From a bacterium (GTDB taxonomy: Bacteria > Arandabacterota > Arandabacteria > Arandabacterales > Arandabacteraceae): a stretch of 64,000 bases of DNA. The stretch spans positions 166,211-230,210 of the forward strand of contig JAOZOU010000005.1 in assembly GCA_029933125.1 (NCBI GenBank), written 5' to 3'. Below the pieces are notes generated by a model. It ran no database searches. It saw nothing but the letters and a program-made list of their open reading frames with translations, and was not told the origin of the DNA. The translations under genes were made by a program, and so were the position numbers. Positions 41,547 to 64,000 of the stretch are shown here, piece by piece (positions within the stretch are counted from its first letter, which is position 1; each line of letters begins with the position of its first letter).

Positions 41547-43304
41547 ATGGATCATCTTAACATTGCTTGGCTTCTCATCGCCTGTTTGCCCCTTTTCGCC
41601 CTCGGATACTTCATCTACGGCGGGTATCTTAGTCGCCTCTTTGGTGAAGATAGGTCAAGGAAGACACCAGCGATCACAAAGGAAGATGGACGCGATTACG
41701 TTCCTGCGAATCCCCTTGTTCTTTTCAGTCACCATTTTGCTTCAATTGCTGGTGGCGGTCCGATTGTAGGACCTACAGTTGCTCTCATATTCGGCTATGG
41801 TCCAGCATGGTTGTGGATAGTACTGGGAGCAATTTTTATCGGTGCTGTCCATGATTTTTCTTCACTTTTCGTGAGCATGAGAGAGGGCGGGAGATCTATT
41901 GCCGAGGTTGCAGAACGCTATCTTGGTAGAAGAGGCTTCGTGCTTTTCATATCTTTTGCTGTCGTCTATATTGTGCTGGTTACATCGGCTTTCCTGCAGA
42001 TGACTGCTACTGCTCTTACATCTGTCGTGCCAGCTGAAACCATCGGGCTTACCCATAATAATACTCTTTTAAGAACAGTTATCGTTGAAGGCAGAGAGGT
42101 CATCAAAATAGGAGGTATTGCATCAACATCGGTTATTGTAATGACGTGTTTTGCTCCTATCCTGGGCTGGCTTCTTTATCGCAGGCGATTCAATGCATGG
42201 ATAGTAGCTATCATTGCTATAGTTGTGGCTCTGGTTTCTATTCGCCTCGGACTTTCCCATCCCGTAAACGTTAGTCCGAACATCTGGATGCTCATCCTTT
42301 CAGTCTATGTCTTCTTCGCTTCCGGCATACCCGTCTGGATAATTCTTCAGCCTCGCGATTTCACAAACTCCTTTATCCTGTTTGCTGGCATAGTAGCGCT
42401 TGTTGTAGCTACAATTGGTGGCGGACTTAAGGGTCTAACTTTCAATGCCCCAGTTGTGGATGTTGCCTCCGGACAAGCCCATCTTGGTAGCCTTTGGCCA
42501 ATTCTGTTCATAACAATTGCTTGTGGAGCTATCTCAGGCTTTCATGCTCTCGTTGCAAGTGGAACAACCTCAAAGCAGATCTCTTCAGAGACCCATGCCC
42601 GGAAGATAGGCTATGGTGGAATGCTACTTGAAGGTGTGCTTGCCATATGTGTTGTAACTGCCGTTGCAGCTGGTATAAAGTTTGCTGCCTACAAGTCAGT
42701 TGTATTCCCAAGCCAGGGCAGGTCGAATCCCATCCTCGGCTTTGCTCTTGGCATGGGAGGACTTCTTCATAAGAGCCTTGGAGTAAATCATGCCTATGGG
42801 ACGGTCTTTGGCATACTCATGGTTGAGGGTTTTGTCGTTACAACACTTGATACTGCGGTTCGGTTGAATCGCTACCTCTTTGAGGATCTCTGGAAGACAA
42901 GCCTCAAGCAACCTCCGCGTCTGCTACGAAGCTATTACTTCAATTCACTCCTAAGTGTTGTGCTGATGTTCATTCTTGCCAAGACCAATGCCTTCCTTGC
43001 CATCTGGCCAATCTTTGGCACAGCAAATCAACTGCTTGCAGCTATGACGCTCGTTGGTGTAACAGGATGGCTGATGCGCAAGGGCAAGTCCTATCTTGTC
43101 ACTCTCCTTCCTGCTGCCTTTATGGTAACGACCACTACGGCTTCGCTTCTCAAGCTCCTTTTCCAGAAGTATCTCCCTGATGGAAATGCTACACTTGCCG
43201 TTGCGGATATGCTGCTTCTTGCGCTTTCAATCGCCTTCATCGGTCTGGCGATTTCACTTTTCAGGAGGGGGGATGGAATGTGGCAGAAAGCATCCGCAAG
43301 GTAG
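41547..43304 (+). CDS. cstA: Carbon starvation protein CstA (pyruvate/peptide transporter)
   Basis: A ~585-aa inner-membrane protein with about 15-18 hydrophobic helices. CstA signatures include FALGYFIYGGYLSRLFG, NPLVLFSHHFASIAGGGPIV, GAVHDFSSLFVSMREGG, SGFHALVASGTTSKQI and WPIFGTANQLLAAM. It belongs to the shorter CstA type found outside enterobacteria. Members import pyruvate or peptides during carbon limitation. The start is ATG 41547, 4 bases after glmS; TTG 41535 would overlap it. It overlaps ridA by 25 bases. Confidence 0.93.
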   Translation: MDHLNIAWLLIACLPLFALGYFIYGGYLSRLFGEDRSRKTPAITKEDGRDYVPANPLVLFSHHFASIAGGGPIVGPTVALIFGYGPAWLWIVLGAIFIGAVHDFSSLFVSMREGGRSIAEVAERYLGRRGFVLFISFAVVYIVLVTSAFLQMTATALTSVVPAETIGLTHNNTLLRTVIVEGREVIKIGGIASTSVIVMTCFAPILGWLLYRRRFNAWIVAIIAIVVALVSIRLGLSHPVNVSPNIWMLILSVYVFFASGIPVWIILQPRDFTNSFILFAGIVALVVATIGGGLKGLTFNAPVVDVASGQAHLGSLWPILFITIACGAISGFHALVASGTTSKQISSETHARKIGYGGMLLEGVLAICVVTAVAAGIKFAAYKSVVFPSQGRSNPILGFALGMGGLLHKSLGVNHAYGTVFGILMVEGFVVTTLDTAVRLNRYLFEDLWKTSLKQPPRLLRSYYFNSLLSVVLMFILAKTNAFLAIWPIFGTANQLLAAMTLVGVTGWLMRKGKSYLVTLLPAAFMVTTTTASLLKLLFQKYLPDGNATLAVADMLLLALSIAFIGLAISLFRRGDGMWQKASAR

Positions 43305-43690
43305 TTACGTCTCGAGCACCTCAGGCGATTGGTCCCTACAGCCAGGCAGTGGTTTATGAACAAGGAGGATTGGTATTTGTCTCAGGTCAACTTGGGATCG
43401 ATCCTGCAAGTGGTGAATTTGCTGGTCCAACAGTTGGAGCTCAAACAAGGCAGTGCCTCAAGAATCTTGCTAATATCATTGAAGCTACAGGTTCAACAAT
43501 GTCATCAGTCATTAAGACAACTGTCTATCTGGCAGACATGAATGATTTTGGCGAGATGAATCGAGTTTATGAGGACTACTTTAAGGAACCACATCCTGCA
43601 AGAGCATGCGTAGCTGTCAAGCAGCTTCCCAAAGGAGCTCTTGTTGAGATAGATGCCATTGCTGCCAGAGAGGAACCAAGAGATGGTTGA
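43280..43690 (+). CDS. ridA: RidA-family enamine/imine deaminase
   Basis: A 136-aa RidA protein starting at GTG 43280 behind CAGGAGGGGG, inside the end of cstA. Typical sequences are APQAIGPYSQAVVYEQGG, VFVSGQLGIDPASGEF, and the C-terminal PARACVAVKQLPKGALVEID with the catalytic Arg. It hydrolyses reactive 2-aminoacrylate and related imines that PLP enzymes release, protecting other PLP enzymes; cysteine desulfurase and selenocysteine synthase belong to that class. Its TGA stop lies 8 bases inside selD, so the two are coupled. Confidence 0.94.
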   Translation: MAESIRKVVTSRAPQAIGPYSQAVVYEQGGLVFVSGQLGIDPASGEFAGPTVGAQTRQCLKNLANIIEATGSTMSSVIKTTVYLADMNDFGEMNRVYEDYFKEPHPARACVAVKQLPKGALVEIDAIAAREEPRDG

Positions 43691-44726
43691 GAAGATAAGG
43701 CTAACACAGTTCTCAAGTTGCGCTGGCTGAGCCTCTAAGGTGGGTCCGGGTGACCTCGAGTTCATCCTCAAAGGGCTTAAGCCAATAGCAGACAAGCGCC
43801 TCCTTGTTGGGGCTGAGAGTCTCGACGATGCAGCAGTCTATGCGCTTGGTGAGGATGATGCCATCGTACACAGTGTCGACATCTTTACCCCTGTTGTGGA
43901 CGAGCCGCGTAGCTACGGAAGGATCGCCGCAGCAAATGCTTTAAGCGACATCTATGCGATGGGGGCAAAGCCAGTGCTCGCAGTTAATGTGCTGTGCTTT
44001 TCGGAAGAGGTCATTCCCAAATCCGTTGTGAGAGAGATTCTTAGAGGTGGCTATGAAAAAGCGGCAGAAGCTGGCGTTGCCATTGGCGGTGGCCACTCGA
44101 TTGAGGATAGAGAACTAAAGTATGGTCTGAGCGTTGTAGGGATAGTAGAGAGAAATTGCCTCATTACCAACTCAAATGCAAAGCCAGGTGATCTTCTCAT
44201 ACTTACAAAGCCTCTAGGCATAGGACTGATTACAACTGGTATCAAGTCTGGAGTGGCTCGTGCTCGAACTATTCGCAAGGTCAAAAGCATCATGGAGGAG
44301 CTCAATCTAGCTCCCTCCGAAGCGATGGTAGAGTACGGAGCGCATGCTTGCACTGACATAACTGGATTTGGCTTCCTGGGCCATGCTTTTGAGCTGGCTC
44401 AGGCCAGTGGAGTGGATCTCGAGATCGACTTCTCAAGCCTGCCTGTTATGCCTGAGGCTTATGAAATGCTGAAGGCTGAAGCAATAGCAGGTGGACTCTG
44501 GACGAATAAGGCCTACGTGATGGCACATGTCGAAACAGTTGGATTGAGTGATGATGAGGTAAACATCATGTGTGATCCTCAAACATCAGGTGGACTCCTC
44601 ATAAGCATTCCAAAGCCCGGAGCCATAGCTTTGCTTCGAGCCTTGAAGGCAAGAGGCATGGGATATGCGGCTATCGTTGGAAAAGTTCTTGCGAAAGGCA
44701 AAGGGAGGATTATAGTTAGAAAGTGA
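43683..44726 (+). CDS. selD: Selenophosphate synthase, itself a selenoprotein (Sec at codon 16)
   Basis: A 347-aa protein in which TGA at 43728-43730 is read as selenocysteine. The N-terminus reads MVEKIRLTQFSSCAG-Sec-ASKVGPGDL; in SelD this position is the catalytic Cys or Sec and Lys19 is its conserved partner. A start at GTG 43740 would remove these residues, so ATG 43683 with GAGGAACC upstream is right. ATP-site motifs include VHSVDIFTPVVDEP, AANALSDIYAMGAKP, AIGGGHSIED and CTDITGFGFLGHA. It makes monoselenophosphate from selenide and ATP. The tRNA-Sec gene follows 7 bases after the stop. Confidence 0.95.
43728..43760 (+). promoter_or_regulatory. Sec UGA codon with candidate bacterial SECIS hairpin
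   Basis: After the TGA, CTC (43733-43735) can pair with GAG (43758-43760) and GGTC (43743-43746) with GACC (43752-43755), placing a CGGGT loop 17-21 bases downstream of the TGA. Loop distance and G/U-rich loop fit known bacterial SECIS elements, which bind SelB. The fold was drawn by hand, so its detail is uncertain. Confidence 0.55.
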
Positions 44727-44733
44727 GTGTTTA

Positions 44734-44830
44734 GGGAATGGATGGGTTCTGGTGGACCTCAAGGACTTCAAATCCTTTGTCGGGTGCGAGGAGCATCCGA
44801 GGTGGGTTCGATTCCCACACATTCCCGCCA
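44734..44830 (+). tRNA. selC: tRNA-Sec (anticodon TCA)
   Basis: This 97-base RNA has acceptor stem GGGAATG/CATTCCC with discriminator G and encoded CCA. It has a 6-bp D stem GGGTTC/GGACCT with loop TGGT, as is specific to tRNA-Sec, and an anticodon arm GGACTTCAAATCC with anticodon TCA. Its long variable arm is CGGGTGC-GAGGA-GCATCCG (7 bp) and its T arm GTGGG-TTCGATT-CCCAC. Position 8, usually paired in the 8-bp acceptor, is a G facing A. It lies 7 bases after selD and probably shares its transcript. Confidence 0.97.
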
Positions 44831-44847
44831 TCTGGGGAGGCTGAAGT

Positions 44848-45357
44848 TTGAAGATCTGTGTGATAATAGTGGTCACAGTGGCAGCTTTGCTTATTCTTTC
44901 CTCGAGGCTTCTGGCAGATGACGGGAGCATTACGCTCGATGAGCAATCCCGCCAGGACAGCACAAATGCTTCCCCCGCATTTATTCCCAGAATGGGCATT
45001 GATTACAGTCTTGAGAAACCCAATTTCAGGCATTCGCCCAGGCGTAGCGTCATTCTTTCTGCAATCCTGCCCGGTCTTGGCCAAGCTGACAATGGGAGAT
45101 GGGCAAAGGCTACATCTTTTGTAGTTATTGGCTCACTCCTTGTTGCAAAGATAGCAGTCGAGTCGCAAAGAGCCGATAGATACCTCTATCTTTCCCGCCA
45201 TGCGGCATCCGATGAGGAAGCCGAAGCTCTCTACGGAGCTTATACCGACCATTTTGACCGTAGAGATCGGTTCATCTGGTGGGCTGTTGGCTTCTGGATT
45301 TACAATATGCTGGATGCCTATGTAGATGGCCATCTCTTTGGATTCTCCCGTCAGTAA
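44848..45357 (+). CDS. DUF5683-like membrane protein
   Basis: A 169-aa protein from TTG 44848 with GGGGAGG upstream. Residues 1-23 form a signal peptide or membrane anchor (CVIIVVTVAALLILSSRLLA). The middle carries SVILSAILPGLGQADNGRWA, the hallmark of DUF5683-type proteins, and WWAVGFWIYNMLDAYVDGHL near the end forms a second hydrophobic segment. Proteins of this family are cell-envelope associated and uncharacterised. It starts 17 bases after tRNA-Sec and lies 35 bases before lepB, so it is between selenium genes and envelope/secretion genes in one transcript. Confidence 0.8.
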   Translation: MKICVIIVVTVAALLILSSRLLADDGSITLDEQSRQDSTNASPAFIPRMGIDYSLEKPNFRHSPRRSVILSAILPGLGQADNGRWAKATSFVVIGSLLVAKIAVESQRADRYLYLSRHAASDEEAEALYGAYTDHFDRRDRFIWWAVGFWIYNMLDAYVDGHLFGFSRQ

Positions 45358-63945: not shown

Positions 63946-64000
63946 GGGCCCATAGCTCAGCTGGTCAGAGCGCCCGGCTCATAACCGGAAGGTCCTAGGT
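63946..64000 (+). tRNA. tRNA-Met (anticodon CAT), cut by window edge
   Basis: The first 55 bases are present: acceptor strand GGGCCCA, D arm GCTCAGCTGGTCAGAGC, anticodon arm CCGG-CTCATAA-CCGG (anticodon CAT) and the variable region. It resembles an elongator tRNA-Met; tRNA-Ile2 with modified CAT cannot be excluded. The T arm and 3' end lie past the window. Confidence 0.9.

Follow-up and report, generated by a model that had tools for sequence, protein, structure and literature searches.

A predicted selenocysteine-type selD gene adjoins the selenocysteine tRNA gene in a bacterial order that also encodes a cysteine-type NifS-SelD fusion

The selD-selC locus and its in-frame TGA

Within the window, by which we mean the whole 64,000-nucleotide stretch of DNA analysed here, a gene for SelD is followed after 7 bases by selC, the gene for the selenocysteine (Sec) tRNA (Table 1). 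Both belong to a longer gene run, ridA-selD-selC-DUF5683-lepB-lepA-hemW, in which everything from ridA to hemW is encoded on the plus strand. The selD ATG lies inside the 3' end of ridA, whose stop codon occupies 43688-43690, and the selD frame ends with a TGA at 44724-44726. The tRNA gene was called by ARAGORN and matches the Rfam tRNA-Sec model with 76.6 bits (gathering threshold, 47; E value, 5.8e-14); it is the only match to this model above the cut-off in the genome.

Table 1. Features of the selD-selC locus, in window coordinates
Feature	Position	Strand	Description or basis
ridA	43280..43690	+	Rid family; 8-nt overlap with the selD start in the window genome
Shine-Dalgarno-like site	43667..43673	+	AGAGAGG, 9 nt 5' of the selD ATG; from sequence
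selD	43683..44726	+	Selenide, water dikinase (selenophosphate synthetase), 347 aa, Sec at residue 16
TGA read as Sec	43728..43730	+	At the site of catalytic Cys17 of E. coli SelD
Bacterial SECIS hairpin	43742..43756	+	Stem GGGUC/GACCU, apical loop CGGGU, 16 nt past the UGA
Candidate selC promoter	44689..44716	+	TTGCGA-16-TATAGT within the 3' portion of selD, ending 17 nt 5' of selC; suggestive only
selC	44734..44830	+	tRNA-Sec, anticodon TCA, CCA encoded; ARAGORN, Rfam RF01852
DUF5683 protein gene	44848..45357	+	Directly 3' of selC in all class relatives with a detected selC

Codon 16 of selD is a TGA in the context SSCAG-U-ASK, with a Lys three residues further on (K19). In an alignment, this codon falls in the column of the catalytic Cys of the solved E. 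coli SelD structure (3u0o, HGAGCGCK), with the downstream Lys in register, and it was also aligned with the Aquifex enzyme (2yye). Among 111 homologues, this column contains TGA in 47 cases and TGT or TGC in the other 64 and nothing else, and four relatives (G001, G002, G003, and G006) have a TGA at the identical position. The initial annotation, which had described an in-frame TGA at the catalytic position, the conserved Lys, an upstream ATG with a Shine-Dalgarno sequence, and a tRNA-Sec with a TCA anticodon 7 bases past the selD stop, is therefore borne out on each of these points. It had also warned that an automatic start call at GTG 43740 would remove the active site, and a mechanical ORF caller placed the start at exactly this codon; automatic annotation thus strips the active site from this enzyme.

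The whole protein scores 367.9 bits against the NCBIfam selD model TIGR00476 (cut-off, 125), and the residues expected of a SelD, a Sec or Cys at the catalytic position and a Lys three positions later, are present as U16 and K19. By these sequence criteria, the protein is a Sec-form selenophosphate synthetase with predicted activity. At the gene level, codon 16 is Sec encoding, and Sec would be inserted at this residue in vivo. A sequencing error or a pseudogene is ruled out by the TGA and hairpin kept in relatives, and UGA is not an ordinary sense codon here, as it terminates both selD and ridA. Sec-containing bacterial SelD proteins are known, for example, from Deltaproteobacteria, Clostridia, and Photobacterium profundum (PMC1794560). 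Like these, the protein described here has Sec at the catalytic position and a bacterial SECIS just downstream, and the protein itself does not differ from them. It shares 57 to 76% identity with its counterparts within the order and at most about 50% with the other SelD proteins found here.

The SECIS hairpin and the selenocysteine machinery

The hairpin downstream of the UGA, with its 5-bp stem, CGGGU loop, and 16-nt spacing, agrees with published constraints on bacterial SECIS elements (PMC13188914). When the 61-base stretch was folded alone, its energy was mildly better than that of shuffled sequences (z = -1.65), and hence it is the comparative evidence that carries the SECIS assignment. 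In a set of 47 Sec-type selD genes that spans many phyla, pairing was seen in 204 of 235 stem cells, compared with 145 ± 4.8 in synonymous-codon shuffles, none of 1,000 of which reached the observed value. A full 5-bp stem was present in 27 of the 47 Sec-type genes and in 0 of 64 Cys-type genes. In a 34-sequence alignment, 12 cells had changed on both sides in a compensatory manner, and the covariation score was 0.307 versus 0.152 for shuffled alignments (0 of 500 as high); all registers obtained by sliding the stem scored worse than the true one. Since pairing and covariation both exceed those of the shuffles, the signal reflects an RNA structure and not coding constraint alone. The hairpin is conserved beyond the synonymous-codon expectation, as required of a bacterial SECIS element, and the selD covariation data amount to a SECIS model that spans phyla.

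A search of the genome for selA and selB, the absence of which would have spoken against Sec decoding, recovered both. SelA matched with 497.7 bits, and SelB (398 bits) is full length, with GTPase, beta-barrel, and winged-helix domains. All four genes that define the Sec-decoding trait, selA, selB, selC, and selD, are present in the genome; selA and selB are unlinked to the locus, lying on contigs C152 and C42, respectively, while the window is on C171.

The selenoproteome was sampled with the Molybdopterin (PF00384) and AhpC-TSA (PF00578) models and the SECIS model R1. PF00384 gave one match, which lacked a TGA, and PF00578 gave two matches with a TGA. One is a peroxiredoxin gene with an FTFV-TGA-PTE motif (L173, G000:C42:429774-430175, minus strand), which has a GGCAGC-GGUC-GCUGCC hairpin downstream. 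The other, at L177 (G000:C42:224334-224669), encodes a thioredoxin-like protein whose N-terminal part is long and repeat-like and which has an APG-TGA-PAC motif near the C terminus. In each gene, a hairpin loop lies approximately 16 to 18 nt past the UGA. It is likely, judging from these motifs, that the genome contains at least two selenoprotein genes besides selD; SelD as the sole selenoprotein is ruled out by these two genes, and therefore the Sec trait is not maintained for SelD alone. With model R1, selD was the only clear match, and all others had E values of 0.08 or worse, one of these weak matches being the homologous site of a Cys-type SelD gene described below. As R1 missed the peroxiredoxin and thioredoxin-like genes, it is specific to selD.

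Conservation and transcription of the selD-selC pair

The gene order glmS-cstA-ridA-selD(Sec)-selC-DUF5683-lepB-lepA is kept, within contig reach, in the window genome (G000) and in G001, G002, G003, G005, and G006; selD of G001 is split over two contigs, and the G005 assembly contains only the 3' part of the gene. In every genome of the order in which a tRNA-Sec gene is detected, six in total, selD and selC are adjacent, with gaps of 7 to 28 nt. In G004, for which the assembly is 86% complete and SelA is present, the Sec-type SelD, tRNA-Sec, and DUF5683 genes were not found, probably due to a missing contig. Outside the order, none of 24 other sampled genomes with SelD and tRNA-Sec has the two genes within 1 kb; the nearest pairs are approximately 3.4 kb (G044) and 5 kb (G047) apart. 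Among 80 SelD loci of named genomes, each inspected with at most 3 kb of flanking sequence, a single one (L094) has a tRNA-Sec gene beside selD. This locus (L094:27-4146), from an alphaproteobacterial metagenome-assembled genome (MAG), has the order selA-selB-selD(Cys)-selC, with selC beginning 10 nt past the selD stop. A selD gene adjoining selC hence also occurs elsewhere.

A selDABC cluster has reportedly been described for Eubacterium acidaminophilum by Gursinsky in 2000, a paper cited in PMC12013277. Nesting of selC within selB is recorded in PMC13188914 and in the title of PMC8124441. In the locus described here, selC is likewise linked to a sel gene, but its partner is selD alone. Nothing useful on selD1 of E. 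acidaminophilum or on SelD autoregulation was found in the literature searched, and this literature, the coverage of which was incomplete, yielded no description of a two-gene selD(Sec)-selC unit in combination with a Cys-type NifS-SelD. While every component is of a known kind, a selD(Sec)-selC unit that lacks selA and selB, extends through an order, and occurs in genomes that also encode a Cys-type NifS-SelD is uncommon. The locus provides a clean and conserved case, from a little-known bacterial lineage, of a Sec-type SelD gene adjoining the gene for the tRNA that decodes it.

It is possible, although we consider it somewhat doubtful, that the adjacency arose neutrally, was inherited within the order, and has no regulatory meaning, selD having landed, or stayed, between ridA and selC by chance. 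In G007, a member of the same class, the corresponding region (L187:6261-7333, G007:C107) reads glmS-ridA-selC-DUF5683-lepB-lepA, and the Sec-type SelD gene of this genome is located elsewhere and falls on a different branch of the tree. As selC occupies the same neighborhood there without selD, the pairing is unnecessary for selC function; either selD was inserted 5' of selC in the order, or it departed from this site in G007, as far as the gene orders suggest. The unlinked positions of selA and selB also fit a neutral origin. The maintenance of the pairing over the deep divergence of the SelD proteins noted above speaks against it, but since the order of the flanking genes is kept as well, this is weak evidence either way. 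Neutral adjacency is compatible with the explanation that we favor below, because the latter concerns decoding and not regulation.

A search of the interval that separates selD from selC revealed no terminator-like site, and given the single coding strand from ridA to hemW, read-through into selC is plausible. On the other hand, the sequence TTGCGA-16-TATAGT in the selD 3' end resembles a sigma-70 promoter. In an overall scan, sigma-70-like sites were no more numerous than expected by chance. A similar sequence is found at the corresponding position of G001, G003, and G006, though not in G002 and G005, and the summed match over five genomes was 43, versus 35.9 ± 1.7 for synonymous shuffles (0 of 1,000 as high). 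As a control for the relatedness of the genomes, the same test was slid along selD, and of 105 positions the candidate one scored highest (z = 3.06, against 2.25 for the runner-up); the signal is modest and is carried by four genomes. We infer from these sequence features that selD and selC are probably cotranscribed in part, and the conserved match is suggestive of a selC promoter within the selD 3' end. The proposal in the initial annotation of a single selD-selC transcript is not supported in that form, in view of the longer gene run and the conserved sigma-70-like sequence before selC.

A second, cysteine-type SelD and the question of feedback

The genome encodes a second SelD, a 734-aa protein in which a NifS-like class V aminotransferase is fused to SelD (L128:2473-4677, G000:C76) and which has a Cys at the catalytic site (GLG-C-ACK). 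This gene is followed by a rubrerythrin-like gene. Complete NifS-SelD fusions are also present in G002, G003, G004, and G007, and fragments of a second SelD were found in G001, G005, and G006. In a phylogenetic tree, the fusions of this family form a branch of their own inside a Cys clade, separate from the Sec-type SelD clade. Relatives of the SelD part that share its Cys motif are commonly found in MAGs, including those of Bacteroidota and Thorarchaeota. According to PMC4561486, which reported two prokaryotic instances at that time, NifS-SelD proteins consist of an N-terminal NifS-like domain and a SelD that is usually of the Cys type; the fusion found here has the same domains but occurs in a genome with a stand-alone Sec-type SelD. 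In P. profundum, as described in PMC1273633, a Sec-type SelD gene is located beside selAB and a Cys-type one is located beside ybbB. The present genome is similar in that Sec and Cys isoforms occur together and the Sec isoform is encoded beside Sec-decoding machinery. It differs in that the neighbor of this isoform is selC only, with selA and selB unlinked, and in that its Cys isoform is fused to a NifS-like domain; a search of the genome for ybbB, the gene for tRNA 2-selenouridine synthase, found none.

The conserved residues suggest that the NifS-SelD protein is active, and the simplest reading is that it would provide a Sec-independent supply of selenophosphate, although it could serve another selenium use. 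The two SelD proteins would then divide the labor. Overall, it is highly probable that the locus is a working selenium activation locus with a Sec-type SelD, an adjacent selC, and a separate Cys-type NifS-SelD. In this scheme, SelB would read the SECIS hairpin and direct the insertion of Sec at the selD UGA, for which the adjacent selC would supply the tRNA, and SelA, encoded elsewhere, would use selenophosphate made by SelD to form Sec-tRNA. The NifS-SelD protein would produce selenophosphate with no need of Sec and so prime Sec-tRNA formation, and the Sec-type SelD would then boost capacity when selenium is available. The net outcome would be a positive loop that is conditional and can be entered without Sec, and not obligatory self-dependence. 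A Cys-type SelD can in principle break the chicken-and-egg problem of a Sec-dependent SelD, and the locus makes this priming directly testable.

The initial annotation had gone further and proposed a compact, obligatory positive feedback, in which selD and selC form one transcript and SelD requires its own product in order to be made. The 7-base gap, the adjacency kept across the order, and the Sec at the catalytic site are in line with such a loop, but it presupposes that no other, Sec-independent SelD exists, and both this genome and its relatives encode a Cys-type SelD. With this copy present, the Sec-type SelD need not prime its own synthesis, and dependence of SelD on its own product would apply to only part of the supply. 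Together with the candidate separate promoter of selC, this makes an obligatory loop unlikely. Still less probable, in our estimation, is a translational coupling of selD and selC in which the Sec codon serves as a selenium sensor for the supply of tRNA-Sec. If this were true, ribosomes would halt at codon 16 when Sec-tRNA is scarce, and the long untranslated part of selD would favor termination of transcription and yield less tRNA-Sec; with ample selenium, complete translation of selD would promote selC synthesis, and the Cys-type NifS-SelD would act as the pilot source. Finally, one could suppose that the TGA is a genuine stop, or an artifact of sequencing, and that the cell makes the shorter protein starting at the automatically called GTG. 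This idea can be dismissed, as such a product would lack both the catalytic residue and the Lys, the genome encodes a complete Sec machinery, and both the TGA and the SECIS hairpin recur in four relatives and in other phyla, which already refutes it.

Two minor observations concern other parts of the window. A 137-aa open reading frame with a GNRTH motif, antisense to the tRNA gene (44586-44999, minus strand), is spurious and does not represent a gene, and a further tRNA gene at 63946-64000 is truncated by the window end.
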